Origin: Ascidia mentula
Lineage: Eukaryota > Chordata > Ascidiacea > Phlebobranchia > Ascidiidae
Reading direction: 5' to 3'
NCBI GenBank assembly: GCA_947561715.1
Contig: OX387203.1
Span: 8,742,001-8,806,000 of the forward strand
Length of the DNA: 64,000 bases
Position 1 is the first letter of the stretch, and each line of letters starts with the position of its first letter. The position numbers and the translations under genes are program-made. Below are positions 19,764-49,924 of the stretch, piece by piece. The notes under the pieces were generated by a model. It had not been told where the DNA came from and made no database searches. It was given only the letters and a program-made list of their open reading frames with translations.

Positions 19764-22700
19764 ATGAATTTCAGAGTTGTTTGCGTTTGCATATGTTTAC
19801 TGGCGATTGTTCAAGGCGGGTCGGCATGGTACGTTTTTTGCCTCTTTGAATTCAACAAAAAATATTAAACCAATTTTCTCGGCAAATGGTTTTCAGATTT
19901 TCGGTTGAAATGATTTAAATAGCTAAGATGCAAAACCAAGCATTTATGCTGGTAGCCTGTTACAACAGTTTTGGTGAACATTTTCAACTACGTTAGAATT
20001 TAGATGTATTTATTGCTAATTTGTGAAACCAAAGTTATGCATTTGTTTGTATGCGTAAAAGCTGTCAGATCAAGAAGAAGTTGATTTGATGGTTATTATT
20101 TTTTTTGTGCCGACAGAATATTTTTGTTGCTGGTAATTATTTTGTAAAAATTTAAAGCTGATTGATGACACTGTTTGAAATAACACGTTCGGACATGATA
20201 ATTCTTGCCTAAGAAATTTGTGCATTTGATTCACGTTTTTTGCAGGTGGCGTCGAAGAAGACGCAGATGCGACAAATCGCCTTGCCAATGGACCTGGGCA
20301 AGCTGCTCACGGACTTGTGGAGGCGGAACCCAATCTCCCCGTGTAACAAGAGGAAAAGGACAGTGCGGTTCCTGCAACTTGCCGAGCGCGAGATCGTGCA
20401 ACAACCATTGTTGTCCAGGCATGTTCCTTTATAATGCAAAATAAAAATAGTTAATTGTTGTAAACTTAGTCGCGCACATTATCTGAAATTCTTGGTAGGC
20501 ACTTTTTTGTCTGATCGGTGCTTTTCATGACAAGGATTTCGATAACTGTCAATTCTGTGGTTTAACATACATGTGATTTTCCTTAAGTGTGAAACAAGAT
20601 AAAACTGCTGTTCTTTAACCTTGCCGTACGGTAACAAGAAATCACGTGACGCCTGGTTGCCACAGTACCGAGAGTGGTTACCGTTGTGTTCATGAATTAT
20701 TTCAGTCAACTGTGTATGGGGAACATGGAGAAGTTGGAACGAATGTTCTAAGAGCTGCTCAGACGGCACCCAATCACGGACTCGTGAGGTTAGCCGCAGA
20801 GAAAGTTGCGGAGGCAGTCGATGTTATGGAAGTTCAGTTTCAACGCAGAGATGCAACACCAAGTGCTGCCCGATAGACATTCATTGGGCGTCGTGGTCGA
20901 ATTGGGGAGAGTAGGTTGAGTTTAACGTTAGTTTTACCTTCAGGTTAATTTGTCATGGTCATAAGCAAACATATGAAAGCGTGGACAAAAATATCGATAG
21001 ACGATATTAAATTGTAAGCCGAAACTGACGCAGAAGTTTTGAAAACATACGTCACAGAACTGTCGTTTTCATAAGCTGGCGTAATTGAAACAACTCATGA
21101 ATGTTATATTTCTGGTATTTTTGTTCGCTTCTGGCGTGATATTTTTTCCTTACTGGCAAAGTCGTGTTTAGATGTAGCACGTCATGCGGAAATGGCGCGG
21201 AGTTTCGAACTCGAGAAATTCTGTCTGATAAATCGTGCAAAGGAGCTGGCTGTAGTGGGCAACTAAGCGAGGAACGTCTGTGCAACCCTGGGTGTTGTCC
21301 TGGTTAGTAAAAACACACTTTCCAGTAAATACACGATAAATACCTCAATTTCTTCAATACGACGTGTCAGTCCATGGTCTTACAACAACTCCATTGTACG
21401 AGCTTTCGCTTGCCTCTTATGAAAACAGTGCACCAGCAAGTACTATATATAACGATAAATGCTGCAAGTTAAACATGATTGGCAACGACAACAAGATTTA
21501 ACACAAGTTCCAACTTCAAAGTATTCCAGCTTTAACACAAGTCACACTTAACGTTAAAGGATATCTCCAAAGGCTAAATTGTTTTTGGTTTCAGTGAACT
21601 GCACTGTATCGGATTGGGAAAACTGGGGCGATTGTCCACAAACCTGCGGCGTTGCGATCAACAAAGTTAGGAACAGATCGGTGATCACTAGTAACACGTG
21701 TGGAGGGGAGGAATGCCCGACCCTACAGGAAGTCGAGAGTTGTGAAATGATTTGTTACAATGGAGCCACTGCGAATGCTACAGGTTGTTTATGTCAACCA
21801 GGGTGGAGCGGTCTATGTTGTGATCAAGGTACATATTTTCTGTAGTGAAACCGTATCTCCCTAGCTATTTCCTTCTGGTTAACAACAGTGACATACAACG
21901 TCACTGTTTGTTTTTCCAGACGTTGACGAATGCACGCAACACGGAAATAGTTCATGCCCCTTGAATTTAGTCTGCGTCAACACAGAAGGAAGTTACCGAT
22001 GCGATTGCGACCCAGGCTACCAGAAAAACAGCGACATGGGATGTGAAAGTACGTCATCAGGAAATTGCTGGAACATAGCAGTTAGTAATAACATGTCTAA
22101 AGGAAATTAGAACAGTGCGTATTCCAAAAATCCAAAAATCCATTCCATAATATTTTGCATTACTAATTTGAACATTTCGCCCATAACACCCATTCAATGT
22201 TGCCTGTTTCAGATATTAATGAATGCGATGATCAGAGTGACACATGCCACCAAAACGCTCAGTGTTTCGACACTGATGGAAGCTTCTACTGTTTGTGTGA
22301 TGAAGGGTACTCTGGAAACGGTACTCATTGCTCGGGTAATGAACACGCATCCCATGTCCCATATCTTTACATTGACAAACATTTAAACATACAAAATTAA
22401 ATTCTACACATATCAGGCATTAGGTTACATGGATAAATTCTTTCAGTTGCGCTACGTTGATTATTAACCAAAACTAACTTTTGTAGAAATAAACGAGTGC
22501 GAAGCGGGCACTGATACTTGCCCAGACAACAGTGAATGCGTCAACATTGAAGGAAGCTATACTTGTCCTTGTCTTCCTGGCTTCGTGTCCCAAGACGGAC
22601 AATGCTCTGGTTTGAATTAATACGAAACTTTTTTTACATTTGTCCTTCGCGCCAATCAACAATAAGCATAGGCACCAATTGCAATATAGCTGTGTTGGTA

Positions 22701-23708
22701 ATAGATAATTGCGCTATGAAAACAAGAAACGTGTCTCAACGATATTCACCTACGTGTAAACCACTTCCACGTGTATATAACCCTTTTATCTGCACATGTC
22801 AATTATGCTAAACCTATAGGATTTATAAAGCCTTTTATTATGAACAATCTACAGATATCAACGAATGTGCCGACCAAACCGCAAATTGCCACGTCCGAGC
22901 AATATGTGAAAATAAAGTTGGGTCGTACGATTGTCGATGTGATGAAGGTTTCGAAGGGGACGGCAGGACCTGTGTTGGTGAGAAATAAACGGATATGTTT
23001 ATTTGTTTTTTTGTCATACACATTGATGACAAGTCTTTCTATGACCCAAATTTGTTACGTGGGTATAAAGAATCAATAAGTTTCCAAATTAAAAGAGAAG
23101 TTTAGTTTAAAAGCTTTTATGAAAATTTCTAAATTTTTGATAGGAATTGTGCTGAATTTGGCGAAGATGCGTGTCCGGATAACGCTGTGTGCGCTGATTT
23201 GCCTGAAGGATTTCGGTATGGTGTAATTACGGAATCCTTCAGGCAAATCAGCGCACACGGCGTTATCTGTTGCTTGTGATGTAAAGTTAGTTAGCCTACC
23301 ATATATGAGATTCAATGCTGCACGATTCCTAATGATTCTTGGCGAAAATTATGTGAAGATATCAACGAATGTGATGACGATCCGTGTACAGTAGACCACA
23401 TGGAATGCACAAACACGGTTGGTAGTTACGTGTGTGCTTGTCCTGATCACATGGAATTGGAAAGTGGAAGCTGCATCGGTAAGAAACTGTTTGAAAGTTC
23501 GATTTTCTGTGAATGCTTGTTGGCATTGTGATTGCCCAAAGTACGTCAACAGACTTTGTACAGTTTTGAAATATGTGCTTGGTAAACTTCTCTGCAACGT
23601 AAACAACAGAACTTAACATTATTTCGATTCGACTGAAAACAAGCTCAGTGTTTCCTTGTGAGTAAACTCACGAATTTCTTTCCAGAACTTCCGCCTGACT
23701 TACTTTAG
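19764..23708 (+). CDS. TSR/cbEGF paralogue A, secreted
   Basis: Eleven exons: 19764-19828, 20246-20418, 20706-20910, 21172-21302, 21595-21828, 21920-22048, 22213-22335, 22487-22609, 22855-22977, 23359-23478 and 23686-23708. They sum to 1449 nt (482 codons plus stop) with one open frame. Domains in order: a cleavable signal peptide ending near GGSAW, a six-arginine run, three TSRs (W-x-x-W and CSxSCGxG-type motifs), a TSR fused to a Cys-rich EGF-like segment, then five one-exon cbEGFs starting D-[IV]-[ND]-E-C. The last exon encodes only ELPPDLL and a stop. Its partner exon in gene D continues into a transmembrane helix, so A is predicted to be soluble. Intron 2 uses a GC donor (20419) where B, C and D have GT. 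The third exon differs from B-D, so A is the most divergent copy. Role inferred only as extracellular adhesion or matrix. Confidence 0.82.
23148..23267. repeat. Relic EGF exon with inverted copy of itself (gene A intron)
   Basis: After an acceptor-like TAG the sequence can be read NCAEFG...ACPDNAVCADLPEGF, the first half of an EGF domain, but its phase does not fit the neighbouring phase-1 exons. The stretch 23178-23213 is repeated in inverted orientation at 23231-23267 with very few differences, giving a hairpin with stems of about 36 bp and an 18-nt loop. Gene B has the same structure at 28075-28165. I treat the exon as dead. Confidence 0.7.
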
Positions 23709-24983
23709 AGAATGTGTGATGTGAAGTCTGGCCTTTAAATGACAACCCGGAAAGACCCTACGTTTTTTATCATTATTGCATCTCATATGATTTATCATCT
23801 ATTAATACATCTTGAAAGAGTTTTAAAGTAGCGTGCCATTATCTATCTATCGATTTTACTTTATGAAAACCTATTAAGCCAATTGAAAAACTCGAACTCT
23901 ACGCAATTTTCTCGTATTTCACAGATCATATATCGCGATGACACAATTTTAATCATGGTTGATTGTGACTAAGTTAAACTCGGGAATGAAATTGTTGGAA
24001 ATGTAACAATATTGACGGAGAATCGTTTTCAGCTACTTTCGTTCTAACACTTCAAAAGTCTGACAGCTTTTTTTCTGTAGAATTACGAACATTATTGTGA
24101 ACATCATGATCAACAAATTAAATTAAGTACTCACAATTTAAAAAAATAAAAGTTGTAAATTTGACGTTTTCATATCGTTTGTTGTGAAACCAATTTTATT
24201 GTTAAATGTTCTGTAATTATGGATCACAAGAAACGTTTTGATGGATCGAAAGATGCATTCCTTAACTGATAAATAGAGCTAATAATACCCAGTACAAGGT
24301 TGATTGCCCAAGAATAATCAAAACATTTTGCGCTTTACTTTAAAACTACGAACTTTTTTCCGAAAAAACAGTTTTCACAGCAAAAAGCAGCAAAAATGCA
24401 GTTTGGTTTGCACCAAAAGTTTGCAATTCGGTGTCGACCTCAAACATGTTCTACGCAATGGCAACAAAATTAGTCAAGCAGATTTTATTCAATACGAAAT
24501 CAAAGCCGCGTAAAATCAAGAAGAATGAAAATCACAAGATTAGAAACTTGGCCCGTAATATGTTCAGCTTCTCCATAAAAACTAAAGTCAAAAGATGGTA
24601 AGATGCTAAAACTCCTTTGCATATATACTTGTTTGCGATGGATAAATCATATTTCAACAAAAAGTTAAATATATCATGTGGCTTGTTGGGAAATCAAAAA
24701 AACATTTAGTGACTTGTTGGCATTTTACCATCTTTTGACTTTAGTCTGTTATTGACAGTTGGCAACGAGAGCATGCTGGCACCAAAACGCTGTCTTGTGA
24801 ACTGAAAATTGTAACTAAGTTAAATTTTAGTTCCTTCAAGAAATCATACATTTCTCTTAAAAAAGAAACGTGGTCGAAAGTGTGACTCACCATCTAGAAA
24901 GGCCTTAAATCAGCACATGAGCACTGAGCTGAACATTTGATGGGAAACATTGACAAATCGTGCGGAAAAATTAAGTATTAGTT
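23709..24983. other. Intergenic A-B, with a 21-bp inverted repeat
   Basis: No gene. The first half resembles the B-C and C-D intergenic regions, so it belongs to the duplicated unit. The perfect inverted repeat ACTAAAGTCAAAAGATGGTA(A) at 24581-24601 and its complement at 24725-24745 bound a possible small MITE. The last 250 bp matches the region upstream of gene A (about 19480-19763), showing that the promoter-proximal DNA was duplicated too. Confidence 0.65.
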
Positions 24984-27900: not shown

Positions 27901-28606
27901 TGTTTTTTTGTCATACACATTGATGACAAGTCTTTCTATGACCCAAATTTGATACGTGGGTATAAAGAATCAATAAGTTTCCAAATTAAAAGAAAACTTC
28001 AGTTTGAAAGCTTTTATGAAAATTTCTAAATTTTTGATAGGAATTGTGCTGAATTTGGCGAAAATGCGTGTCCAGATAACGCTGTGTGCGCTGATTTGCC
28101 TGAGGGATGTAGGTTTGAATGTAAATCCGGAATCCTTCAGGCAAATCAGCGCACACGTCGTTATCTGTTGCTTGTGGTGTTAGGTTAGTTGGCCTACTGC
28201 ATATGAAATTTAATGCTTCACGATTTGTAATGATTCATGGCGAAAATTATGTGAAGATATCAACGAATGCGATGACGATTCGTGTACAGTGGCCCACATG
28301 GAATGCACAAACACGGTTGGTAGTTACGTGTGTGCTTGTCCTGATCACATGGAATTGGAAAATGGAGAATGCATCGGTAAGAAACTGTTCGAAAGTTCGA
28401 TTTTCTGTGAATACTTGTTGGTGTTGTGATTGCCAAAACTACATCAACAGACCTTGTACAGTGTTGAAATATGTGCTTGGTAAACTTCTCTACAACATAA
28501 ACAACAGAACTTAACATTGTTTCGGTTCGACTGAAAACAAGCTCAGTGATTCCTTGTTGGTAAACTCACGAATTTCTTTTCAGATCTTCCGCCTGACTTA
28601 CTTTAG
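24984..28606 (+). CDS. TSR/cbEGF paralogue B, secreted
   Basis: Exons: 24984-25051 (two adjacent in-frame ATGs, 24984 and 24987), 25339-25511, 26072-26398, 26509-26742, 26835-26960, 27126-27248, 27398-27520, 27752-27874, 28257-28376 and 28584-28606. The frame is open throughout (about 479 codons). Domains: signal peptide, six-arginine run, TSR 1, an exon with two TSRs (starting VNCYWASW and VNCAWGPW), a TSR/EGF exon, five cbEGFs, and a last exon encoding DLPPDLL then stop. Like A and C it stops before the transmembrane exon of D, so the product should be secreted. Tryptophan (W-x-x-W) and CxxSCGxG motifs mark the TSRs as potential C-mannosylation and O-fucosylation sites. Intron 2 carries a MITE-family insertion shared with C and D but not A. 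Confidence 0.83.
25681..25925. mobile_element. MITE-family insertion in intron 2 of gene B
   Basis: The block starts with CATCAGCGCAGTTGGTGACTG and carries ACTTTGTGGTGACTTTGC, the signature of the hairpin family at 7547. It ends near GGCTTGGTATCACGAA. Homologous blocks occupy the same intron in C (30655-30890) and D (42122-42357) but not in A, so insertion came after A split from the ancestor of B-D. Confidence 0.6.
28033..28165. repeat. Relic EGF exon with inverted copy (gene B intron)
   Basis: Same structure as in gene A: a half-EGF reading (ACPDNAVCADLPEG) at about 28040-28108 and an inverted copy of its end at 28129-28165. It lies between the fourth and fifth cbEGF exons. Its presence in A and B shows it predates their separation. 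Confidence 0.7.
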
Positions 28607-30129: not shown

Positions 30130-33100
30130 ATGCTGAAAACTCTTTTCGTTTGTTTATGTTTGCTGGCAATTATTCATGGCGCATCGGCATGGTAAGTATG
30201 TTTGTTGTTGTGCGGAGTGAGGTTTGTGATGTGTTTGTAAATCGAATTTTGCCGTCAAAAAGAAATACAAATTGCAGCAAAATGTTCGATTTACCCCAGA
30301 ATTTGGACTTCTGCAGGTTGTTTTGGAGTGATTGTAGCACCACGCCCTGTCAATGGAGGTGGGGAAGCTGCTCACGACCTTGTGGAGGTGGAAGAATGTA
30401 TCCAACAATAACTCGGAGTAAGGGAGAGTGCAGTTCCTGCAACTTGCCTTACTCGAGATCGTGCAACACCCAATGTTGTCGAGGTAATGAAACAGAGAAT
30501 AGGTTTCTCCTTATTTGCTGTTCAGTGGAAAATGAGGTTAAATTTGTTTTAAATTTATGAAACATATCAATGCGACTACAAAAAAACGTGCTGTTGTGTT
30601 GGAACGTAATAGCGATACAGATATTAGCTACAAAGCGTTGTGCGCATTGCTTCGACCTGCCAATACACATCAGTGCAGTTGGTGACTGACAACAGTCTTA
30701 TCAGCTATAAAGAGAGGATCTCACTTTGCAGTTTCTTTGCGCTGGATGTCGCTGCGTTAGGTCCCAAACGAGGTACGAGCGGCTAGAGACAAACTGTATT
30801 GGATAATACCATCGCCAAGCAACTGCTTGGGATCTAATAGTGTGGCCGGCTTGGTATCACGAACATTATTGGCTCATTCCGTGTACATAATATACAGAAA
30901 TTGGCAATATAACAATTATAATCTACACTCCGAGTGGAAGTTAGTAGTACTCTTTATGAACAAATGTACTTTGAATTTAACTGTAATGAAATTTTGTAAT
31001 AAAAAAATTCAATCTCTGTGTTTTAAGATATCGCATTTCGACTATTACCATCATGATTGTTTCAGTGAACTGCTATTGGGCATCATGGAGGAGTTGGGGT
31101 GGATGCTCTGCGAGCTGTGGAAGTGGAATCAGGACACGGACCCGGGGATACGGCCGGAGTGCAAGTTGCGGAGGCAGTCGTTGTTACGGAGGCTCAACTT
31201 CGTCACAGACTTGTAACACAAGATGCTGTCCGGTGAACTGCGCCTGGGGATCATGGGGGCGTTACGGTTCATGCTCCGCCAATTGTGGCGGAGGAACGCA
31301 GTCTAGATCTCGCTCTAAAACAAGATCCGATTCTTGCGGAGGGTCTTGCTCTGGGTTTTCGTATTCTTCTCGCTCGTGCAATACTCACTCTTGCCCTATC
31401 AATTGTCGTTGGAGTTCATGGGGTGAATACGGGACATGTTCTGTCTCTTGCGGAGGGGGGACACACGTTAGATCAAGAAATATCTCTGTAAGTTCCCGGC
31501 ATGGAGGTTTAGCTTGTTCGGGGCCATCGAAGTCTTCAAGTAGATGTAACTCTCAGCTTTGCCCTATCAATTGTCGTTGGAGTTTGTGGGGTGAATACGG
31601 GACATGTTCTGTCTCTTGCGGAGGTGGAACACAGGTTAGATCAAGAAATATCTCTGTAAGTTCCAGGCATGGAGGTTTAGCTTGTTCGGGGCCATCAACG
31701 TCTTCAAGTAGATGCAACTCTCAGCTTTGCCCTATCAATTGTCGTTGGAGTTTGTGGGGTGAATACGGGAAATGTTCTGTCTCTTGCGGAGGTGGAACAC
31801 AGGTTAGATCAAGAAATATCTCTGTAAGTTCCAGGCATGGAGGTTTAGCTTGTTCGGGGCCATCAACGTCTTCAAGTAGATGCAATTCTCAGCCTTGTCC
31901 TATTGATTGTCGTTGGAGTTTGTGGGGTGAATACGGGACATCTTCTGTCTCTTGCGGAGGTGGAACACAGGTTAGATCAAGAAATATCTCTGTAAGTTCC
32001 AGGCATGGAGGTTTAGCTTGTTCGGGGCCATCAACGTCTTCAAGTAGATGCAACTCTCAGCTTTGCCCTATCAATTGTCGTTTGAGTTTGTGGGGTGAAT
32101 ACGGGACATGTTCTGTCTCTTGCGGAGGGGGGACACACGTTAGATCAAGAAATATCGATGTAAGTTCCAGACATGGGGGTTTAGCTTGTTCGGGGCCATC
32201 GAAGTCTTCAAGTAGATGCAATTCTCAGCCTTGCCCTATCAATTGTCGTTGGAGTTTGTGGGGTGAATACGGGACATGTTCTGTCTCTTGCGGAGGGGGG
32301 ACACACGTTAGATCAAGAAATATCGATGTAAGTTCCAGGCATGGGGGTTTAGCTTGTTCGGGGCCATCAACGTCTTCAAGTAGATGCAACTCTCAGCTTT
32401 GCCCTATCAATTGTCGTTGGAGTTTGTGGGGTGAATACGGGACATGTTCTGTCTCTTGCGGAGGTGGAACACAGGTTAGATCAAGAAATATCTCTGTAAG
32501 TTCCAGGCATGGAGGTTTAGCTTGTTCGGGGCCATCAACGTCTTCAAGTAGATGCAACTCTCAGCTTTGCCCTATCAATTGTCGTTGGAGTTTGTGGGGT
32601 AAATACGGGACATGTTCTGTCTCTTGCGGAGGGGGGACACACGTTAGATCAAGAAATATCGATGTAAGTTCCAGACATGGGGGTTTAGCTTGTTCGGGGC
32701 CATCAACGTCTTCAAGTACTTGTAACTCTCAGCCTTGCCCTATAGATTGTCGTTGGAGTTTGTGGGGTGAATACGGGACATGTTCTGTCTCTTGCGGAGG
32801 GGGGACACACGTTAGATCAAGAAATATCGATGTAAGTTCCAGACATGGGGGTTTAGCTTGTTCGGGGCCATCAACGTCTTCAAGTACTTGTAACTCTCAG
32901 CCTTGCCCTATAGATTGTCGTTGGAGTTTGTGGGGTGAATACGGGACATGTTCTGTCTCTTGCGGAGGGGGGACACACGTTAGATCAAGAAATATCGATG
33001 TAAGTTCCAGACATGGGGGTTTAGCTTGTTCGGGGCCATCAACGTCTTCAAGTACTTGTAACTCTCAGCCTTGCCCTATAGATTGTCGTTGGAGTTTGTG

Positions 33101-36100
33101 GGGTGAATACGGGACATGTTCTGTCTCTTGCGGAGGGGGGACACACGTTATATCAAGAAATATCGATGTAAGTTCCAGACATGGGGGTTTAGCTTGTTCG
33201 GGGCCATCAACGTCTTCAAGTACTTGTAACTCTCAGCCTTGCCCTATAGATTGTCGTTGGAGTTTGTGGGGTGAATACGGGACATGTTCTGTCTCTTGCG
33301 GAGAGGGGACACACGTTAGATCAAGAAATATCGATGTAAGTTCCAGACATGGGGGTTTAGCTTGTTCGGGGCCATCAACGTCTTCAAGTACTTGTAACTC
33401 TCAGCCTTGTCCTATAGATTGTCGTTGGAGTTTGTGGGGTGAATACGGGACATGTTCTGTCTCTTGCGGAGGGGGGACACACGTTAGATCAAGAAATATC
33501 GATGTAAGTTCCAGACATGGGGGTTTAGCTTGTTCGGGGCCATCAACGTCTTCAAGTACTTGTAACTCTCAGCCTTGCCCTATAGATTGTCGTTGGAGTT
33601 CATGGGGTGAATACGGGACATGTTCTGTCTCTTGCGGAGGGGGGACACACGTTAGATCAAGAAATATCGATGTAAGTTCCAGGCATGGAGGTTTAGCTTG
33701 TTCGGGGCCATCGAAGTCTTCAAGTAGATGCAACTCTCAGCTTTGCCCTATCAATTGTCGTTGGAGTTTGTGGGGTGAATACGGGACATGTTCTGTCTCT
33801 TGCGGAGGTGGAACACACGTTAGATCAAGAAATATCGATGTAAGTTCCAGGCATGGGGGTTTAGCTTGTTCGGGGCATCAACGTCTTCAAGTACTTGTAA
33901 CTCTCAGCCTTGCCCTATAGATTGTCGTTGGAGTTTGTGGGGTGAATACGGGACATGTTCTGTCTCTTGCGGAGGTGGAACACAGGTTAGATCAAGAAAT
34001 ATCTCTGTAAGTTCTAGGCATGGAGGTTTAGCTTGTTCGGGGCCATCAACGTCTTCAAGTAGATGCAATTCTCAGCTTTGCCCTATCAATTGTCGTTGGA
34101 GTTTGTGGGGTGAATACGGGACATGTTCTGTCTCTTGCGGAGGGGGGACACACGTTAGATCAAGAAATATCGATGTAAGTTCCAGGCATGGGGGTTTAGC
34201 TTGTTCGGGGCCATCGAAGTCTTCAAGTAGATGCAACTCTCAGCCTTGCCCTATCAATTGTCGTTGGAGTTTGTGGGGTGAATACGGGACATGTTCTGTC
34301 TCTTGCGGAGGGGGAACGCAGATTAGATCAAGAAAGATCGCTGAAAGTTCCAGGCATGGGGGTTTAGCTTGTTTCGGGCCATCAACGTCTTCAAGTGGAT
34401 GTAACTCTCAGCCTTGCCCTATCAATTGTCGTTGGAGTTTGTGGGGTGAATACGGGACATGTTCTGTCTCCTGCGGAGGGGGAACGCAGATTAGATCAAG
34501 AAAGATCGCTGAAAGTTCCAGGCATGGGGGTTTAGCTTGTTTCGGGCCATCAACGTCTTCAAGTGTATGTAACTCTCAGCCTTGCCCTATCAATTGTCGT
34601 TGGAGTTTGTGGGGTGAATACGGGACATGTTCTGTCTCTTGCGGAGGGGGGACACACGTTAGATCAAGAAATATCGATGTAAGTTCCAGACATGGGGATT
34701 TAGCTTGTTCGGGGCCATCAACGTCTTCAAGTACTTGTAACTCTCAGCCTTGCCCTATAGATTGTCGTTGGAGTTTGTGGGGTGAATACGGGACATGTTC
34801 TGTCTCTTGCGGAGGGGGGACACACGTTAGATCAAGAAATATCGATGTAAGTTCCAGACATGGGGGTTTAGCTTGTTCGGGGCCATCAACGTCTTCAAGT
34901 ACTTGTAACTCTCAGCCTTGCCCTATAGATTGTCGTTGGAGTTTGTGGGGTGAATACGGGACATGTTCTGTCTCTTGCGGAGGGGGGACACACGTTAGAT
35001 CAAGAAATATCGATGTAAGTTCCAGACATGGGGGTTTAGCTTGTTCGGGGCCATCAACGTCTTCAAGTACTTGTAACTGTCAGCCTTGCCCTATAGATTG
35101 TCGTTGGAGTTTGTGGGGTGAATACGGGACATGTTCTGTCTCTTGCGGAGGGGGGACACACGTTAGATCAAGAAATATCGATGTAAGTTCCAGACATGGG
35201 GGTTTAGCTTGTTCGGGGCCATCAACGTCTTCAAGTACTTGTAACTCTCAGCCTTGTCCTATAGATTGTCGTTGGAGTTTGTGGGGTGAATACGGGACAT
35301 GTTCTGTCTCTTGCGGAGGGGGGACACACGTTAGATCAAGAAATATCGATGTAAGTTCCAGACATGGGGGTTTAGCTTGTTCGGGGCCATCAACGTCTTC
35401 AAGTACTTGTAACTCTCAGCCTTGCCCTATAGATTGTCGTTGGAGTTCATGGGGTGAATACGGGACATGTTCTGTCTCTTGCGGAGGGGGGACACACGTT
35501 AGATCAAGAAATATCGATGTAAGTTCCAGGCATGGAGGTTTAGCTTGTTCGGGGCCATCGAAGTCTTCAAGTAGATGCAACTCTCAGCTTTGCCCTATCA
35601 ATTGTCGTTGGAGTTTGTGGGGTGAATACGGGACATGTTCTGTCTCTTGCGGAGGTGGAACACACGTTAGATCAAGAAATATCGATGTAAGTTCCAGGCA
35701 TGGGGGTTTAGCTTGTTCGGGGCATCAACGTCTTCAAGTACTTGTAACTCTCAGCCTTGCCCTATAGATTGTCGTTGGAGTTTGTGGGGTGAATACGGGA
35801 CATGTTCTGTCTCTTGCGGAGGTGGAACACAGGTTAGATCAAGAAATATCTCTGTAAGTTCTAGGCATGGAGGTTTAGCTTGTTCGGGGCCATCAACGTC
35901 TTCAAGTAGATGCAATTCTCAGCTTTGCCCTATCAATTGTCGTTGGAGTTTGTGGGGTGAATACGGGACATGTTCTGTCTCTTGCGGAGGGGGGACACAC
36001 GTTAGATCAAGAAATATCGATGTAAGTTCCAGGCATGGGGGTTTAGCTTGTTCGGGGCCATCGAAGTCTTCAAGTAGATGCAACTCTCAGCCTTGCCCTA

Positions 36101-39100
36101 TCAATTGTCGTTGGAGTTTGTGGGGTGAATACGGGACATGTTCTGTCTCTTGCGGAGGGGGAACGCAGATTAGATCAAGAAAGATCGCTGAAAGTTCCAG
36201 GCATGGGGGTTTAGCTTGTTTCGGGCCATCAACGTCTTCAAGTGGATGTAACTCTCAGCCTTGCCCTATCAATTGTCGTTGGAGTTTGTGGGGTGAATAC
36301 GGGACATGTTCTGTCTCCTGCGGAGGGGGAACGCAGATTAGATCAAGAAAGATCGCTGAAAGTTCCAGGCATGGGGGTTTAGCTTGTTTCGGGCCATCAA
36401 CGTCTTCAAGTGGATGTAACTCTCAGCCTTGCCCTATCAATTGTCGTTGGAGTTTGTGGGGTGAATACGGGACATGTTCTGTCTCTTGCGGAGGGGGGAC
36501 ACACGTTAGATCAAGAAATATCCCTGAAAGTTCCAGGCATGGGGGTTTAGCTTGTTTCGGGCCATCAACGTCTTCAAGTGGATGTAACTCTCAGCCTTGC
36601 CCTATCAATTGTCGTTGGAGTTTGTGGGGTGAATACGGGACATGTTCTGTCTCTTGCGGAGGGGGGACACACGTTAGATCAAGAAATATCGATGTAAGTT
36701 CCAGGCATGGGGGTTTAGCTTGTTCGGGGCCATCAACGTCTTCAAGTGGATGTAACTCTCAGCCTTGCCCTATCAATTGTCGTTGGAGTTCATGGGGTGA
36801 ATACGGGACATGTTCTGTCTCCTGCGGAGGGGGAACACAGATTAGATCAAGAAATATCGATGTAAGTTCCAGGCATGGGGGTTTAGCTTGTTCGGGGCCA
36901 TCAACGTCTTCAAGTACTTGTAACTCTCAGCCTTGCCCTATCAATTGTCGTTGGAGTTTGTGGGGTGAATACTGGACGTGTTCTGTCACTTGCGGAGGGG
37001 GAACACAGGTTAGATCAAGAAATATCTCTGTAAGTTCCAGGCATGGAGGTTTAGCTTGTTCCGGCTTGTCGATGTCCATAAGAAGTTGCAACACCCACCC
37101 ATGTCCAATGCATTGCATCTGGGGAGCGTGGAGCGAATTTGGAAAATGTTCTGTGAGTTGTGGTGGCGGAAATATGATGAAAACAAGATCGGTGCAAGTA
37201 AAGGAACAACTTGGTGGCACAAAATGTGCGGGCGAAACATTCTTTAACCAATCCTGCAACACTCGGCCTTGCCCTGTTGATTGTTTATGGGGAGAATGGA
37301 GCAATTACGATAAATGCTCTGTAAGTTGTGGTGGGGGAACTCAAACAAAACTTAGGAAACTCGCTCGTTACGTAAGGTATGGAGGTTTAAATTGCACAGG
37401 ACCAACCGAGCAGTCGCAGAGATGCAACACCCAATGTTGCCCGGTTAACTGCCAGTGGGGACAGTGGAGTAAATTTAAGGATTGTTCCATTGAATGTGGT
37501 AACGGCACACAATATCGCAATCGACAGGTTGTGGTTGCAGCTGACTGCGGTGGTCAAGGATGTTTGGGCGAAGATACCTCGTCACAATTCTGTAACACTC
37601 ACTGCTGTCCCATCGACTGCCAGTGGGTAGAGTGGAGTGATTTCGGCGAGTGTTCTGTCCCATGCGGTGGAGGCCAAAAACACCGTCAACGCCAAGTTTC
37701 TGTGGAGCTAGCGTGTGGCGGACGTTCCTGCAATGGTTTAGGTGTTGATTCAACACCGTGTAACACACACCCATGTCCTGTGGATTGCGTTTGGGGTAAC
37801 TGGGGTGTGTGGAGCAACTGCAATGTTACCTGCGGTGGTGGATCCAGGTTCAGATCAAGAAAAATTGACGTGGAAGCTCAGCATGGCGGATTCGAATGCG
37901 AAGGCCAATCAGAAGAGTCAGAGTAAGTGTTTATTGAATAGAAATGCATGGTGTTTGGTACTTGTCATGAGTGGGAATGTGGCGATTTTGTGTTGGCACC
38001 AGATATCACTCAGCTTCCCATTTGTTAGATTCCCTGTTCCTGATTTGCTAAAAATTTACTGCTCATTACTTCTATAACAATAAACAATTATTTGCAGAAT
38101 CTGTAATCAAAATTGTTGCCCAGTCAAATGTGTCCGGAACAATTGGAGTGTTTGGACGCTCTGCTCCAAAACGTGCCAGAATGGTTGGTAGTTATTTGGT
38201 ATGCTTTCTGGCATAGATTGAAAAAAAAACGTAACAAAATTGTTTATTTGAAGGAACGCAATCAAGGTTGAGAAGTGTCAGTGTGACGCAAACATGCGGT
38301 GGTTCCCCTTGCAATGGCAGCTTCATGGAAGAGAGAACGTGCAATGATGTTTGTTGTCCTGAAGATTGTGTGTGGGGCCAGTGGTCAGCTTGGGGAGAGT
38401 TAGTATTTATTTTGGCTCTTGTACCTATCTAAATGTTACCGTAATGATTCGTTTTCTCTGAAGGCAATTTTCTGGAAAACAATTACTATCAAAGTTTGAC
38501 ACTGCATTGCTTCATAGGATGTATAAATTAGCGATAATCAAGTTTATATGATGCTAAAAATTAGTTGATAATTTGTCCAGATGCAGCAAAACTTGCGGCA
38601 CAGGCTCTAAGGTACGGGAAAGAAATATTCACTTGAACAAGACCTGCAACGGAGCGGATTGCATCGGTGATAACAGGGATGAACAAAAATGCAACTCTCA
38701 GTTTTGTTCTGGTATGTTGTCTCGGAATAGCTGAATAGCAGTTCAGAAATTCGTGTCAAAATCTTGAAATCGAAACCCAAATAACACTCTGTCTGCAAAG
38801 AATCAGGAGGACAAATTTTTGTTTAGTAAGCTGCACTGTATCGGATTGGGAAAACTGGGGCTCTTGTCCACAAACATGTGGTGTGACGAACAACAAAGTC
38901 AGGAACAGACCAGTAATCACTAATAACAGGTGTGGAGGGGAGGAGTGCCCGACCCTGCAGGAAGTTGAGAGTTGTGAAGTGATTTGTTACAATGGAGCAA
39001 CTGCGACTGCTTCAGGTTGTTTATGTCAACCAGGGTGGAGCGGTCTGTGTTGCGATCAAGGTATTTTGTTTAATTATGTGGTTTGTTATATCTGCAATAG

Positions 39101-39999
39101 AAAAGTGGCAATGAATTTTTTTGTGATGTAATGAGTAATCTGCAGCTTCGAGAGCTTTTAAATGTGTTACAAAACTCTTGGAATTTTGAAAGATCAGCAC
39201 AGTAAATGAGTAATCTGCAGCAATGGTAGTAAATACGTGGCTGTCTGCATTTCCAGACGTTGACGAGTGCACCCAACAAGGAAGTAGTTCATGCCCCTTG
39301 AATTCAATCTGCGTCAACACAGAAGTTACCACTGTGATTGCCAGTCTGGCTACCAGAAAAACGGCGATTTTGGATGTGAAAGTACGTCAGCAGGAAATTG
39401 CGGGAATCGCAGCAGATAACAAGGACATGTCCCCCCCCAAAAAAAAACTTTTCTTTCTGTCAACACTAAACTGTTACATTATAATTTTCATTGCATATTT
39501 TTAAATTTTTTGTGTATAATACTAATATAATATTGTTTTTTCCAGATATTAATGAATGCGATGATCAGAGTGCCACATGCCACCAAAACGCACAGTGTTT
39601 CGACACTGATGGAAGCTTCTACTGTTTGTGTGATGAAGGGTACACTGGAAACGGTACTCATTGCTCAGGTAAAGGACCACGGACTTCATCTCCTCTTAAT
39701 GTAGACAAACATTCAAACATATAAAATTTCTTTCTACACATATTATGCATTAGGTTACATGGGTAAAACGTTACAATTGCGCTACGTTGATTAATAACCG
39801 AAACTTACTTTTATAGAAATAAACGAGTGTGAAGCGGGCACTGATACTTGCCCAGACAACAGTGAATGCGTCAACATTGAAGGAAGTTATACTTGTCCTT
39901 GTCTTCCTGGCTTCGTGTCCCAAGGCGGACAATGCTCTGGTTCAAGTTCAGTGTTTCCTTGTCGGTTTCTTTTTAGAACTTCCGCCTGACTTACTTTAG
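30130..39999 (+). CDS. TSR/cbEGF paralogue C, giant TSR array, frame-disrupted
   Basis: Exons: 30130-30191 (intact signal peptide), 30317-30483, 31066-37922, 38098-38183, 38254-38398, 38581-38711, 38827-39060, 39257-39381, 39546-39668, 39817-39939 and 39977-39999. The 6.9-kb third exon encodes two TSRs, 34 tandem 56-residue TSRs and five diverse TSRs. With flanking exons the total is about 45 TSRs, followed by three cbEGFs and ELPPDLL-stop. Lesions: one base missing near 33876 and again near 35723, within the same GGGGCCATC site, and five bases missing in the first cbEGF exon near 39324. As written, translation would end at 33920. Two cbEGF exons present in B are gone, and the last gap is only 37 nt. 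It may be a pseudogene, a transcript rescued by splicing, or an array with assembly errors. Confidence 0.72.
30655..30890. mobile_element. MITE-family insertion in intron 2 of gene C
   Basis: Homologue of the insertion in gene B (25681-25925) and almost identical to the one in gene D (42122-42357). It contains CATCAGTGCAGTTGGTGACT and ends near GGCTTGGTATCACGAAC. Confidence 0.6.
31393..37104 (+). repeat. Tandem 168-bp TSR-coding array of gene C (34 units)
   Basis: Period 168 bp (56 codons) from GCCCTATCAATTGTCGTTGG at 31393 to the first diverged TSR at about 37104. The total is 34 units minus two bases. Each unit begins [LP]CPI[ND]CRWS, with CSVSCGGGT in the middle. Unit subtypes differ at a few positions: T[QH][VI]RSR[NK]I[SD]V or KIAE; ACSG or ACFG; STSSS[RTG]C. 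Units about 9-19 and 20-30 form an 11-unit block repeated in tandem (1847-bp offset), both copies with the same one-base deletion. Unit 4 replaces one motif cysteine by serine, and unit 22 has an extra cysteine (TCNCQ). Confidence 0.95.
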
Positions 40000-41597: not shown

Positions 41598-44500
41598 ATG
41601 CTGAAAACTCTTTCGTTTGTTTATGTTTGCTGGCAATTATTCATGGCGCATCGGCATGGTAAGTATGTTTGTTGTTGTGCGGAGTGAGGTTTGTGATGTG
41701 TTTGTAAATCGAATTTTGCCGTCAAAAAGAAATACAAATTGCAGCAAAATGTTCGATTTACCCCAGAATTTGGACTTCTGCAGGTTGTTTTGGGATGATT
41801 GTAACACCACGCCCTGTCAATGGAGGTGGGGAATCTGCTCACGACCTTGTGGAGGTGGAAGAATGTATCCAACAATAACTCGGAGTAAGGGAGAGTGCGG
41901 TTCCTGCAACTTGCCTTACTCGAGATCGTGCAACACCCAATGTTGTCGAGGTAATGAAACAGAGAATAGGTTTCTCCTTATTTGCTGTTCAGTGGAAAAT
42001 GAGGTTAAATTTGTTTTAAATTTATGAAACATATCAATGCGACTACAAAAAAACGTGCTGTTGTGTTGGAACGTAATAGCGATACAGATATTAGCTACAA
42101 AGCGTTGTGCGCATTGCTTCGACCTGCCAATACACATCAGTGCAGTTGGTGACTGACAACAGTCTTATCAGCTATAAAGAGAGGATCTCACTTTGCAGTT
42201 TCTTTGCGCTGGATGTCGCTGCGTTAGGTCCCAAACGAGGTACGAGCGGCTAGAGACAAACTGTATTGGATAATACCATCGCCAAGCAACTGCTTGGGAT
42301 CTAATAGTGTGGCCGGCTTGGTATCACGAACATTATTGGCTCATTCCGTGTACATAATATACAGAAGTTGGCAATATAACAATTATAATCTACACTCCGA
42401 GTGGAAGTTAGTAGTACTCTTTATGAACAAATGTACTTTGAATTTAACTGTAATGAAATTTTGTAATAAAAAAATTCAATCTCTGTGTTTTAAGATATCG
42501 CATTTCGACTATTATCATCATGATTGTTTCAGTGAACTGCTATTGGGCATCATGGAGGAGTTGGGGTGGATGCTCTGCTAGCTGTGGAAGTGGAATCAGG
42601 ACACGGACCCGGGGATACGGCCGGAGTGCAAGTTGCGGAGGCAGTCGTTGTTACGGAGGCTCAACTTCGTCACAGACTTGTAACACAAGATACTGTCCGG
42701 TGAACTGCGCCTGGGGATCATGGGGGCGTTACGGTTCATGCTCCGCCAATTGTGGCGGAGGAACGCAGAAGAGATCAAGGGTTGTCGCCCTAAGTGCCAG
42801 GCACGGAGGTACATCTTGTTCTGGGTCGTCAATGTCATTGCAAACTTGTAACTCACAGCCTTGCCCTATCAATTGTCGTTGGAGTTTGTGGGGTGAATAC
42901 GGGACATGTTCTGCCTCTTGCGGAGGGGGGACACACGTTAGATCAAGAAATATCTCTGTAAGTTCCAGGCATGGAGGTTTAGCTTGTTCGGGGCCATCAA
43001 CGTCTTCAAGTAGATACAACTCTGTGCTTTGCCCTATCAATTGTCGTTGGAGTTTGTGGGGTGAATACGGGACATGTTCTGTCTCCTGCGGAGGGGGAAC
43101 ACAGATTAGATCAAGAAATATCTCTGTAAGCTCCAGGCATGGAGGTTTAGCTTGTTCGGGGCCATCAACGTCTTCAAGTAGATGCAACTCTCAGCCTTGT
43201 CCGATCGATTGTCGTTGGAGTTCATGGGGTGAATACGGGACATGTTCTGTCTCTTGCGGAGGGGGGACACAGGTTAGATCAAGAAATATCTCTGTAAGTT
43301 CCAGGCATGGAGGTTTAGCTTGTTCGGGGCCATCAACGTCTTCAAGTAAATGCAAATCTGTGCTTTGCCCTATCAATTGTCGTTGGAGTTTGTGGGGTGA
43401 ATACGGGACATGTTCTGTCTCTTGCGGAGGTGGAACACAGGTTAGATCAAGAAATATCTCTGTAAGTTCCAGGCATGGAGGTTTAGCTTGTTCGGGGCCA
43501 TCAACGTCTTCAAGTAGATGCAACTCTCAGCTTTGCCCTATCAATTGTCGTTGGAGTTTGTGGGGTGAATACGGGACATGTTCTGTCTCTTGCGGAGGGG
43601 GGACACACGTTAGATCAAGAAATATCGATGTAAGTTCCAGACATGGGGGTTTAGCTTGTTCGGGGCCATCGAAGTCTTCAAGTAGATGCAATTCTCAGCC
43701 TTGCCCTATCAATTGTCGTTGGAGTTTGTGGGGTGAATACGGGACATGTTCTGTCTCTTGCGGAGGGGGGACACACGTTAGATCAAGAAATATCTCTGTA
43801 AGTTCCAGGCATGGGGGTTTAGCTTGTTCGGGGCCATCAAGGTCTTCAAGTAGATGCAACTCTCAGCTTTGCCCTATCAATTGTCGTTGGAGTTTGTGGG
43901 GTGAATACGGGACATGTTCTGTCTCTTGCGGAGGTGGAACACAGGTTAGATCAAGAAATATCTCTGTAAGTTCCAGGCATGGAGGTTTAGCTTGTTCGGG
44001 GCCATCAACGTCTTCAAGTAGATGCAACTCTCAGCTTTGCCCTATCAATTGTCGTTGGAGTTTGTGGGGTGAATACGGGACATGTTCTGTCTCTTGCGGA
44101 GGTGGAACACAGGTTAGATCAAGAAATATCTCTGTAAGTTCCAGACATGGAGGTTTAGCTTGTTCGGGGCCATCAACGTCTTCAAGTAGATGCAATTCTC
44201 AGCCTTGTCCTATTGATTGTCGTTGGAGTTTGTGGGGTGAATACGGGACATGTTCTGTCTCTTGCGGAGGTGGAACACAGGTTAGATCAAGAAATATCTC
44301 TGTAAGTTCCAGGCATGGAGGTTTAGCTTGTTCGGGGCCATCAACGTCTTCAAGTAGATGCAACTCTCAGCTTTGCCCTATCAATTGTCGTTGGAGTTTG
44401 TGGGGTGAATACGGGACATGTTCTGTCTCTTGCGGAGGGGGGACACACGTTAGATCAAGAAATATCGATGTAAGTTCCAGACATGGGGGTTTAGCTTGTT

Positions 44501-47500
44501 CGGGGCCATCAAAGTCTTCAAGTAGATGCAATTCTCAGCCTTGCCCTATCAATTGTCGTTGGAGTTTGTGGGGTGAATACGGGACATGTTCTGTCTCTTG
44601 CGGAGGGGGGACACACGTTAGATCAAGAAATATCTCTGTAAGTTCCAGGCATGGAGGTTTAGCTTGTTCGGGGCCATCAACGTCTTCAAGTAGATGCAAC
44701 TCTCAGCTTTGCCCTATCAATTGTCGTTGGAGTTTGTGGGGTGAATACGGGACATGTTCTGTCTCTTGCGGAGGTGGAACGCAGGTTAGATCAAGAAATA
44801 TCTCTGTAAGTTCCAGGCATGGAGGTTTAGCTTGTTCGGGGCCATCAACGTCTTCAAGTAGATGCAACTCTCAGCTTTGCCCTATCAATTGTCGTTGGAG
44901 TTTGTGGGGTGAATACGGGACATGTTCTGTCTCTTGCGGAGGTGGAACGCAGGTTAGATCAAGAAATATCTCTGTAAGTTCCAGGCATGGAGGTTTAGCT
45001 TGTTCGGGGCCATCAACGTCTTCAAGTAGATGCAACTCTCAGCTTTGCCCTATCAATTGTCGTTGGAGTTTGTGGGGTGAATACGGGACATGTTCTGTCT
45101 CTTGCGGAGGGGGGACACACGTTAGATCAAGAAATATCTCTGTAAGTTCCAGGCATGGAGGTTTAGCTTGTTTCGGGCCATCAACGTCTTCAAGTGGATG
45201 TAACTCTCAGCCTTGCCCTATCAATTGTCGTTGGAGTTTGTGGGGTGAATACGGGACATGTTCTGTCTCCTGCGGAGGGGGAACACAGATTAGATCAAGA
45301 AAGATCGCTGAAAGTTCCAGGCATGGGGGTTTAGCTTGTTTCGGGCCATCAACGTCTTCAAGTGGATGTAACTCTCAGCCTTGCCCTATAGATTGTCGTT
45401 GGAGTTTGTGGGGTGAATACGGGACATGTTCTGTCTCTTGCGGAGGGGGAACACACGTTAGATCAAGAAATATCTCTGTAAGTTCCAGGCATGGAGGTTT
45501 AGCTTGTTTCGGGCCGTCAACGTCTTCAAGTGGATGTAACTCTCAGCCTTGCCCTATAGATTGTCGTTGGAGTTTGTGGGGTGAATACGGGACATGTTCT
45601 GTCTCTTGCGGAGGGGGAACACACGTTAGATCAAGAAATATCTCTGTAAGTTCCAGGCATGGAGGTTTAGCTTGTTCCGGCTTTTCGATGTCCATAAGAA
45701 GTTGCAACACCCACCCATGTCCAATGCATTGCATCTGGGGAGCGTGGAGCGAATTTGGAAAATGTTCTGTGAGTTGTGGTGGCGGAAATAAGATGAAAAC
45801 AAGATCGGTGCAAGTAAAGGAACAACTTGGTGGCACAAAATGTGCGGGCGAAACATTCTTTAACCAATCCTGCAACACTCGGCCTTGCCCTGTTGATTGT
45901 TTATGGGGAGAATGGAGCAATTACGGCAAATGCTCTGTAAGTTGTGGTGGGGGAACTCAAACAAAACTTAGGAAAATCGCTCGTTACGTAAGGCATGGAG
46001 GTTTAAATTGCACAGGACCAACCGAGCAGTCGCAGAGATGCAACACCCAATGTTGTCCGGTTAACTGCCAGTGGGGACAGTGGAGTAAATTTAAGGATTG
46101 TTCCATTGAATGTGGTAACGGCACACAATATCGCAATCGACAGGTGGTGGTTGCAGCTGACTGCGGTGGTCAAGGATGTTTGGGCGAAGATACCTCGTCA
46201 CAATTCTGTAACACTCACTGTTGTCCCATCGACTGCCAGTGGGGAGAGTGGAGTGATTTCGGCGAGTGTTCTGTCCCATGCGGTGGAGGCCAAAAACACC
46301 GACAACGCCAAGTTTCCATGGAGCTCGCGTGTGGCGGAAAAACCTGCAATGGTTCTGATATTGATTCAACACCGTGTAACACACACCCATGTCCTGTGGA
46401 TTGTGTTTGGGGTAACTGGGGTGTGTGGGGCAACTGCAATGTTACCTGCGGTGGTGGATCCAGGTTCAGATCAAGAAAAATTGACGTGGAAGTTCAGCAT
46501 GGGGGATTCGAATGCGAAGGCCAATCAGAAGAGTCAGAGTAAGTGTTTATTGAATAGAAATGCATGGTGTTTGGTACTTGTCATGAGTGGGAATGTGGCG
46601 ATTTTGTGTTGGCACCAGATATCACTCAGCTTCCCATTTGTTAGATTCCCTGTTCTTAATTTGCTAAAAATTTACTGCTCATCACTACTTTCTATAACAA
46701 TAAACAATTATTTGCAGAATCTGTAATCAAAATTGTTGCCCAGTCAAATGTGTCTGGAACAATTGGAGTGTTTGGACGCTCTGCTCCAAAACGTGCCAGA
46801 ATGGTTGGTAGTTATTTGGTATGCTTTCTGGCATAGACTGAAAAAAAAACGTAACAAAATTGTTTATTTGAAGGAACGCAATCAAGGTTGAGAAGTGTCA
46901 GTGTGACGCAAACATGCGGTGGTTCCCCTTGCAATGGCAGCTTCATGGAAGAGAGAACGTGCAATGATGTTTGTAGTCCTGCAGATTGTGTGTGGGGTCA
47001 ATGGTCGGTTTGGGGAGAGTTAGTATTTATTTTTGCTCTTGTACCTATCCAAATGATACCGTAATGAAAACAATTACTACCAAAGTTTGACACTGCATTG
47101 CTTCATAGGATGTATAAATTAGCGATAATCAAGTTTATATGATGCTAAAAATTAGTTGATAATTTGTCCAGATGCAGCAAAACTTGCGGCACAGGCTCTA
47201 AGGTACGGGAAAGAAATATTCACTTGAATAAGACCTGCAACGGGGCGGATTGCATTGGTGATCACAGGGATGAACAAAAATGCAACTCTCAGTGTTGTTC
47301 TGGTATGTTGTCCCAGAATAGCTGAATAGCAGTTCAGAAATTCGTGTCAAAATCTTAAAATCGAAACCCAAATTACACTCTGTCTGCAAAGAATCAGCAG
47401 GACAAATTTTTGTTTAGTGAACTGCACTGTATCGGATTGGGACAACTGGAGCACTTGTCCACAAACATGCGGTGTGACGAACAACAAAGTCAGGAACAGA

Positions 47501-49924
47501 TCAGTGATCACTAATAACACGTGCGGAGGGGAGGAGTGCCCGACCCTGCAGGAAGTTGAGAGTTGTGAAGTGATTTGTTACAATGGAGCAACTGCGACTG
47601 CTTCAGGTTGTTTATGTCAACCAGGGTGGAGCGGTCTGTGTTGCGATCAAGGTATTTTGTTTAATTATGTGGTTTGTTATATCGAATTTTTTTGTGATGT
47701 AATGAGTAATCTGCAGCTTCGAAAGCTTTCAAAAGTGTTACAAAACTCTTTTGGAATTTTGAAAGAACAGCACAGTAAATGAGTAATCTGCAGCAATGTT
47801 AGTATTTACGTGGCTGTCTGCATTTCCAGACGTTGACGAGTGCACGCAACAAGGAAGTAGTTCATGCCCCTTGAATTCAGTCTGCGTCAACACAGAAGGA
47901 AGTTATCGATGTGAGTGCGTCTCAGGCTACCAGAAAAACAGCAACATGGAATGTGAAAGTAGGTTTTTGGCTCGTGTTGCATTTTATTGTGAAAAACTCC
48001 GAAACTTTTTGAAAAAACATGTTTACTTCTAAATTGGTTATTTAGTGTTGAAGCATTCATTACGCGGTTTGTTCTTAGCGTCCATGCAACAAAAGTTTTG
48101 AATAACAACAAATTTTAAACCTTCTGTTGCAGATGTTGATGATTGCATTAGCGAGATTTCGAATTGCCACCAAAACGGTCGATGCGTTGACACTGAGGGA
48201 AGTTTTTTTTGCATGTGCGAGCATGGATTTTCGGGAAATGGAATAGTCTGCTTAGGTATGCCACTGGTCTTTTTTTATTCATTTAAACAAAATCGGCTGC
48301 AGAATCCTTACACTATTAACAGTAATTTTAATTAGACGACAAAACAAGAACAAGCATTCATGATATTAGATTTTTTTTAATTTTAGGTCAACATAGTTAA
48401 TGATTCAATTTTGGAATTATGTATTTTATTCGGGCAGATATTAACGAGTGTGAAGCAAACACTGCTACCTGCCCAGACAACACCATATGTGTCAACACTA
48501 AAGGAAATTATTCATGTCCTTGTCTAACTGGCTTCGTGTCTCAATTTGGGCTATGTTCTGGTTCGTACTGACAAAATAGTGATGGTTGTTCGATAGTTAA
48601 TGTTAGGTTTGAAAACACAGTTCACATTTTTCAATTAAGCATTCAACAATTTTGGACACTGTTTTGTGAGCCCACGCAATGTAATAGCTGAAATTGCTAA
48701 GTTAAGCGGTTGTAAAGCGGGCGACTTTAGCATGGAAAAAGTATGCATAATTTCAGAAATATTTGCTTGTTATATTTTGTTGAACAGATGTTAACGAGTG
48801 CCAGCAAGGGAATGCCGGGTGCGCTGTCAACGCAAATTGCGAAAACACGTTCGGTTCGTACAAATGCTTCTGCAATGAAGGAATGTCCGGGGACGGAAGG
48901 ACTTGTGTTGGTAAGAATTAAACTTGCTTATGTTTGCTTGTTTGGCAACTGGTGATTTGAAACGAAACATTCAACATAAATAATAACTACTATAAGTCCT
49001 CACCAATATCAACCAACACAAAAAATTAAACATCTGCTTTAAAACACACGTTATCCTTGAGTTTAGTTTGCGTTTCATTCATCAAAAATATCACGTTTTA
49101 TTGGGGATTTCCGTAACAATTTAATAGTAATGATGTAAATACAGTACAGTTAGGGCTTGTCACACCTATGCCACCATCCATTTTCAAAATGATTTATTAA
49201 GGTTTTATTCTGTGATTTCAGGTATGATTTAATAAAACACTTTTGCCTTGAAGACATCGACGAATGTAGCGACCCACAGAAGAAACCTTGCACCGGTGAC
49301 TACATGGAATGTCAAAACACAGTGGGTAGTTTTCAATGTACATGTCCTTCCTACATGGGCCTCCAAGATGGAAACTGCGTTGGTAAAAACTACTTTGCAA
49401 ATTTTTATTTGAATGTAAAAGAGGGTGTATTGAGCGTACAACCAAAGCTATCAACAACCTTTTGTGCAATAGTGTAGATTGATTTACAAATACAAATCAA
49501 GCAGCATTGATGAATAATTGATCTAATCTAATAATCTAATCTAATTACCCCTACTGGCATGTGACAAACTTTCGGTTTAGAACTTCCGCCAAACTTTGTA
49601 TCGAGGAAAAAGAAAGAACCGTCAGCGTCAGGCGGAACCATAATTATAAAGTTGACGCTTTACGTGCTTTCGGGAATCGTGGTGATCCTACTGCTCGTAT
49701 TTGTTGCAGTGCAGGTAAATTACATCTTTATAATGTATTCCAGTACGTTTTTTATGCCAACTGTTGTAACTGTGTAATCCATGCTCATGTTGTGCTTTTT
49801 AACCAATTTATTGTATAAGGTGTACAAAGGAGTGGCAAATTCAGAGACCGAAATATTGACAAATCCGTCTCACTGTGAACACAACGCAATAAAACTGGAC
49901 GAAATTAATGACGAAGATCTTTAA
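41598..49924 (+). CDS. TSR/cbEGF paralogue D, single-pass membrane protein
   Basis: Fourteen exons: 41598-41658, 41784-41950, 42533-46538, 46718-46803, 46874-47018, 47172-47302, 47418-47651, 47830-47958, 48133-48255, 48438-48560, 48788-48910, 49254-49382, 49581-49714 and 49820-49924. From exon 2 on, one frame stays open (about 1.88 kb of residues). Domains: TSR 1; two TSRs, 17 tandem TSRs and five diverse TSRs in the 4-kb exon; two more TSRs; a TSR/EGF; five cbEGFs; a basic RKKK patch; a transmembrane helix (about 23 residues rich in I, L and V); and a 34-residue acidic tail ending NDEDL. The signal exon is one T shorter than in C (CTTTCG against CTTTTCG), so the ATG at 41598 is out of frame. 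Either this is a base error, an alternative first exon exists, or the copy is impaired. AATAAA follows at 49980. Confidence 0.83.
42122..42357. mobile_element. MITE-family insertion in intron 2 of gene D
   Basis: Nearly identical to the copy in gene C, reflecting the recent C-D duplication. Confidence 0.6.
42863..45720 (+). repeat. Tandem 168-bp TSR-coding array of gene D (17 units)
   Basis: Same unit as the gene C array, 17 copies, no frame shift, 56 residues each. The first unit ends SRYNSVLCP, replacing a TSR cysteine with tyrosine, and unit 3 ends SKCKSVLCP. The last units are of the ACFGPS/SSGC subtype, as in gene C, so array ends are conserved while the middle varies in number. Confidence 0.95.

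Follow-up and report, generated by a model that had tools for sequence, protein, structure and literature searches.

Tunicate genes for a secreted and a membrane protein lying side by side are known from the candidate histocompatibility locus of Botryllus schlosseri, at which fuhc-sec and fuhc-tm adjoin with a gap of 227 bp (PMC3691228). Here we describe a 64,000-nucleotide stretch of Ascidia mentula DNA (the window; positions 8742001-8806000 of contig C71) carrying four tandem genes, A to D, whose predicted extracellular proteins combine thrombospondin type 1 repeats (TSR) with EGF and calcium-binding EGF (cbEGF) domains. Judged by analogy, the Botryllus pair appears, as far as the available part of its description goes, to be the nearest precedent that we found for adjoining secreted and membrane genes; the secreted fuhc gene has EGF domains as well (PMC3691228). 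In the same part, however, fuhc-tm is given three Ig domains and the pair is not described as sharing its front (PMC3691228), whereas the Ascidia locus comprises tens of genes with a layout common to secreted and anchored forms.

Other extracellular proteins resemble the Ascidia genes in part. HrVC70/HrVC120 of Halocynthia, an egg-coat sperm receptor for which a part in self/non-self recognition has been proposed, likewise has tandem EGF-like repeats, but it ends in a ZP domain and the available text mentions no TSR (PMC9265791). Ci-meta1 of Ciona and Hemps of Herdmania, both metamorphosis proteins, are secreted ascidian EGF/cbEGF proteins; the accessible part of their description gives EGF-like repeats, with novel Cys-rich repeats in Hemps, and no TSR (PMC3760835). 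The TSRs of gene B match solved chains of thrombospondin-1 (E 2.7e-17) and properdin (E 1e-15). Thrombospondins in the strict sense are defined by the thrombospondin C-terminal domain; unlike them, B and the rear of D lack it among their assigned families, and a Pfam scan of both listed neither this domain nor Ig or ZP domains. Neither thrombospondin-1/-2 nor properdin is known to be membrane-anchored. No description of the locus was found in the literature searched (open-licence papers).

Gene forms and extent of the cluster

A search of the genome (195.8 Mb, 79 contigs) placed the window at the left edge of a repeatedly duplicated, ~1-Mb tandem cluster of genes for modular TSR/EGF extracellular proteins. 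The exon for the transmembrane helix of D gave 50 matches at E<=1, every one on C71, 46 of them at E<0.01 and the remaining four at ~0.08; 49 lie between 8.79 and 9.73 Mb, the remaining one at 13.84 Mb. The exon for the cytoplasmic tail gave 38 matches at E<=1. Using the last exon of B with its downstream sequence to 28860 as query, soluble last exons were found at no fewer than 40 loci, which lie without exception between 8.77 and 9.70 Mb of C71; this is a lower bound, with 40 of 49 candidates scored. The four-gene locus so becomes part of a cluster in which one extracellular family has about 50 gene ends of the anchored type and at least 40 of the secreted type. We read 40 soluble ends (A, B and C plus 37 outside the window) and 20 of the 50 anchored matches. 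The two kinds of ends are interleaved, and 16 of 89 neighbour pairs consist of one of each kind, standing tail to tail on opposite strands. A sequence-only reading of the window had presented D, the last gene, as the only anchored member; this is correct inside the window but does not extend to the genome.

One anchored-type end (L025, C71 13.842 Mb) is solitary. It lies ~4.1 Mb off the cluster, the listed soluble ends include none nearby, and it could serve as an outgroup to polarise the family.

Positions 19764 to 49924, to which that reading referred, run from the start codon of A to the final base of the stop codon of D. In B the reading frame is open from ATG to stop and encodes in order a signal peptide, Trp-Trp plus six Arg, four TSRs, an EGF domain, five cbEGFs and DLPPDLL-TAG; its first intron is in phase 2 and all others are in phase 1. 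The domain assignments exceed the Pfam cut-offs for TSP_1 (34.2 bits, cut-off 21.6), TSP1_spondin (56.1 bits, cut-off 41) and EGF_CA, for which five stretches each were found in B (117.8 bits) and in the rear of D (138.8 bits, cut-off 27). TSP_1 matches above the curated cut-off were also obtained in the arrays of C and D. Gene A has a layout like that of B. After its first TSR exon the sequence reads CCAG|GC and has no GT, such that a GC donor is needed; the script picked a fallback donor there and an acceptor at ~21178, the likelier sites being CCAG|GC and AG|A TGT.

Gene D follows the order of B and adds a giant TSR exon and extra TSRs, again with five cbEGFs, before a helix exon and a tail exon. 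After its last cbEGF it reads ELPPNFVSRKKK at 49580, followed by helix and tail. The 19-residue Kyte-Doolittle mean of the D helix is 2.87, compared with 0.57 (A) and 0.84 (B) for the best stretch outside the signal peptide. Searching the window with the helix and tail exons by tblastn gave one convincing match per exon, both in D. It was thus read correctly that the ending [ED]LPPDLL-stop is common to A, B and C, that the helix exon is absent from these three and that D alone in the window has helix and tail.

The signal-peptide exon of D (ATG at 41598) is short of one T that is found in seven of eight genome copies (eight pattern matches), and no ATG was found upstream in this frame as far as the nearest stop. 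Because of this shift D is not open from signal peptide to tail. Two anchored copies outside the window are: in L077 and L078+L079, at 8.852-8.862 and 9.365-9.376 Mb, 12 exons were joined free of stops to 2113 and 2561 residues, and the TSR-EGF and second cbEGF (cb2) exons, which bring the exons looked for to 14, are present and open in both. By their predicted products these two copies fit the layout of a type I membrane receptor, with signal peptide, one helix and tail in one open gene, whereas D of the window does not.

The third form is shorter. By architecture the 40 soluble loci comprise 12 of the long A/B type, C, and 27 mini loci without cbEGF in ~1.4 kb upstream. A whole or partial first TSR (TSR1) was recognised in 26 of these 27 and nothing in the remaining one (L062). 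Models running from signal peptide through TSR1 to the end were open at 16 of the 27 and encode 92-107 residues, with some of the script-chosen acceptors not being the likeliest ones. At five mini loci (L038, L047, L051, L057, L063) the TSR1 exon is recognisable in its second half only; these are probably decayed or rebuilt.

Very probably the cluster thus holds three forms, each produced from its own genes. The anchored form would consist of a signal peptide, TSR1, more TSRs (long arrays in the fully read copies), EGF, cbEGFs, a helix and a short tail. The long secreted form would keep this order with about four TSRs and a helix-free last exon, and the mini secreted form would comprise signal peptide, TSR1 and a short end. 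Anchored members may hold long TSR rods on the cell surface. Secreted members, having TSR1 and in the long form also the cbEGF stem in common with them, could bind the partners of the anchored members and thereby compete with, or bridge to, these in surface recognition or adhesion; they could also be matrix parts. We hold this part, competition or recognition, with somewhat more doubt than belief, while the whole explanation, cluster structure and function together, appears to us evenly poised. Should the partners of secreted and anchored forms prove to be the same, the cluster would offer a natural test of how a surface-receptor family is tuned by its soluble paralogues; should it differ from animal to animal, the group closest to vertebrates would have in it a candidate locus for recognition.

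Could the four units instead form a single transcription unit, with the fronts of A to C spliced or read through to the anchor of D? The same intron phase precedes both kinds of last exon, and linking transcripts are reported, in the available part of the source, for the two Botryllus fuhc genes (PMC3691228). Each gene, however, has its own signal-peptide exon (damaged in D) and its own last exon, 1.3-1.6 kb separate a stop from the next ATG, and the tail-to-tail pairs stand on opposite strands. We consider such a unit highly improbable. An operon with very short gaps was rejected as well, the gaps in the window being above 1 kb.

Last exons and the origin of the soluble stop

The soluble last exons fall into several classes. 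Class I, with the stop at codon 8, accounts for 17 of 40 (A, B, C and 14 others; one has TAA). Nine are class II-like, stopping after 20 codons, five are class III (after 16), eight contain a Gly-run sequence and one is without the usual acceptor. The readings outside class I also end without a helix. Nucleotide comparison indicates that the starts of soluble and anchored last exons are homologous: over the first 11 nucleotides (nt) the mean identity between the two kinds is 97% for class I, 93% for class II and 58% for class III.

The sequence-only reading had aligned the TAG of A, B and C with a Ser codon of D and took the anchor to have been lost there in each of them. By position the alignment stands, since TAG occupies codon 8, at which D has TCG. 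Over nt 18-42 class I is moreover 46% identical in register to the anchor exons, a value equalled by 0.9% of random window pieces. Clear similarity is nevertheless confined to the first 11-17 nt; class II reaches 30% over nt 18-42 (equalled by 26% of random pieces) and class III 28% (35%), and gapped alignment of soluble ends to anchor exons was no better than to dinucleotide shuffles in six tests. In addition, class I is without ~10 bases, GACCTA[AC]TGC, before TAGAG that are present in 15 other soluble copies (13 exact; L041 and L061 one base off), which have a later stop and are likewise helix-free. The TAG of class I would therefore most simply have arisen by a deletion, and a point change from Ser to TAG does not seem to be needed to explain the soluble ends. 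Given also that the cbEGF upstream belongs to another lineage (see below), a separate loss of the anchor in A, B and C by this codon change is very improbable, and the proposal was set aside.

In eight soluble ends (L037, L046, L048, L049, L050, L055, L056, L062) the end is preceded by a (GGTGGA)n run whose length varies. In the four of these inspected at length the run lies directly 3' of an acceptor-like CAG; it would encode poly-Gly.

A hydrophobic stretch after the soluble stops raised the question of a decayed helix, which found no support (gapped alignment, z -0.2 to -2.8 in the six tests).

Lineages, selection and damaged copies

The last cbEGF is specific for the kind of gene. The soluble type, DINECDDDPCTVDHMEC..., is found in 12 of the 40 soluble loci (the other 27 are single-TSR and C is without it), and the anchored type, DIDECSDPQKKPCTGDYMEC..., in 18 of the 20 anchored loci read (partial in L027; not in L021 and L024). 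For this reason the long secreted and the anchored genes look, from their sequences, like two older lineages, with C as a recombinant between them. The front of C together with its upstream flank is 94% identical to D across 5445 nt, while its rear is 92% identical to B across 718 nt and 82% to A across 722 nt, which argues for a recombinant origin. Its signal peptide is retained; the TSR array has one-base frameshifts (-1) near 33876 and near 35723, the first cbEGF (cb1) exon has a 4-nt deletion, and the fourth and fifth cbEGFs (cb4, cb5) are absent. Gene C is thus probably a broken recombinant. Within its TSR array (31390-37061) an 11-repeat block of 1847 nt with a one-base deletion is present twice in tandem, such that the deletion seems to be older than the block duplication. 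Copies of the family exchange sequence, as seen in C and in L076, a D-type copy with a mini-like stretch within TSR1.

From pooled pairwise comparisons we calculated the ratio of nonsynonymous to synonymous change (dN/dS); as the pairs are not independent, the values serve as indications. In soluble loci we obtained 0.20 for cb5 (8 unique sequences of 12), 0.33 for cb4 (7 of 13) and 0.45 for the third cbEGF, cb3 (7 of 13), and in anchored loci 0.15 for cb5 (9 unique of 17). Moving the frame of the EGF exons by one base gave 1.19-2.76. No weight is placed on the value of 1.62 for TSR1 in eight D-type copies, which comes from very few changes. With B open and these low ratios, the long secreted genes look like real genes.

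Several observations weigh against a cluster of three working forms. Mini TSR1 is weakly constrained, with a dN/dS of 0.73 (12 unique of 18 used, of 27) compared with 1.24 and 1.51 out of frame, and 11 of the 27 mini loci gave no open model. Matches to the anchor exon do not prove whole genes. As assembled, moreover, C and D give the window a damaged look and a full product is unlikely from either. That soluble and anchored versions exist, as initially proposed, is supported by separate genes for each. Frameshifts in C, the deletion in D, the minis without open model and the near-identical copies could also indicate a decaying array or an assembly error, with pseudogenes or false duplications making up most of the copies. 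B and the two anchored copies are open, however, and the EGF exons have a dN/dS well under 1. Seven D-type rears that are 93.5-99.1% identical across ~3.1 kb are also more copies than two haplotypes account for. We regard general decay or false duplication as improbable.

Matrix proteins commonly contain TSR and cbEGF units, and the EGF exons are under purifying and not diversifying selection. Both would suit a role as building material of matrix or tunic, the cluster having been amplified for the sake of dosage or of material properties, with TSR arrays as structural rods and secreted members co-assembling with anchored ones. A matrix would have no obvious place for single-TSR minis, or for soluble and anchored genes standing tail to tail, and we rate this alternative to competition or recognition between the forms as rather unlikely. 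A narrower version of the recognition reading, which we consider unlikely, sees in the cluster an immune or self/non-self recognition locus of a tunicate that is not related to the fuhc genes. Anchored receptors with giant TSR arrays would then be encoded next to secreted 'keys' with a single TSR and to long secreted forms that match the receptors. Reshuffling by gene conversion and unequal exchange would give every haplotype a set of receptors and of soluble competitors of its own. An expressed sequence tag library of Botryllus rejection is reported, in the part of the source available, to list three thrombospondin type I domains (PMC2527998), which is at most a hint.

Feature coordinates and surroundings

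Table 1. Positions of the predicted genes A to D and their exons in the window.
Feature	Position	Strand	Basis or remark
Gene A, long secreted	19764..23708	+	splice-phase model; signal peptide, TSRs, EGF, five cbEGFs, ELPPDLL-TAG
A exons 1-6	19764-19828, 20246-about 20412, 20706-20910, 21174-21302, 21595-21828, 21920-22048	+	
A exons 7-11	22213-22335, 22487-22609, 22855-22977, 23359-23478, 23686-23708	+	
A soluble last exon, class I	23686..23708	+	ELPPDLL-TAG at 23685
Gene B, long secreted, 10 exons, 479 residues	24984..28606	+	splice-phase model and Pfam EGF_CA, TSP_1, TSP1_spondin
B exons	24984-25051, 25339-25511, 26072-26398, 26509-26742, 26835-26960, 27126-27248, 27398-27520, 27752-27874, 28257-28376, 28584-28606	+	
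B soluble last exon, class I	28584..28606	+	DLPPDLL-TAG at 28583
Gene C	30130..39999	+	D-like front (signal peptide, TSR1, long TSR array), A/B-like rear, ELPPDLL-TAG
C soluble last exon, class I	39977..39999	+	ELPPDLL-TAG at 39976
Gene D, anchored form	41598..49924	+	gene model
D signal-peptide exon, one-base deletion	41598-41658	+	
D TSR exons	TSR1 41784-41950; giant 42533-46538; 46718-46803, 46874-47018, about 47174-47302	+	
D EGF and cbEGF exons	47418-47651, 47830-47958, 48133-48255, 48438-48560, 48788-48910, 49254-49382	+	
D juxtamembrane and transmembrane-helix exon	49581..49714	+	
D cytoplasmic tail exon	49820..49924	+	TAA stop at 49922-49924

The host assembly includes a mitochondrial contig (C79, 19461 bp). 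Its COX1, read by translation table 13, aligns to solved mitochondrial COX1 with 825 bits, and AGR codons fall on conserved Gly, e.g. in MIGGFGNW, in agreement with table 13 (AGR=Gly, ATA=Met, TGA=Trp), which is the ascidian mitochondrial code. By this code the DNA most likely comes from a tunicate.

Rfam gave no matches in the window. To the left of the cluster a 360-bp satellite occupies 1-4850 and 9361-15516 with 13.5 and 17.1 copies at 99% match; the two blocks are apparently oppositely oriented, their consensus units being similar in reverse complement. An open frame of 391 residues with a DHHC palmitoyltransferase domain (109.3 bits; 16119-17291, + strand) adjoins the left side of the cluster. 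Immediately right of D lies a C2H2 zinc-finger frame (52449-52763, + strand), and further right of the cluster genes a ~1.6-kb direct repeat (54864-56429 and 62453-63997) with 87% identity.

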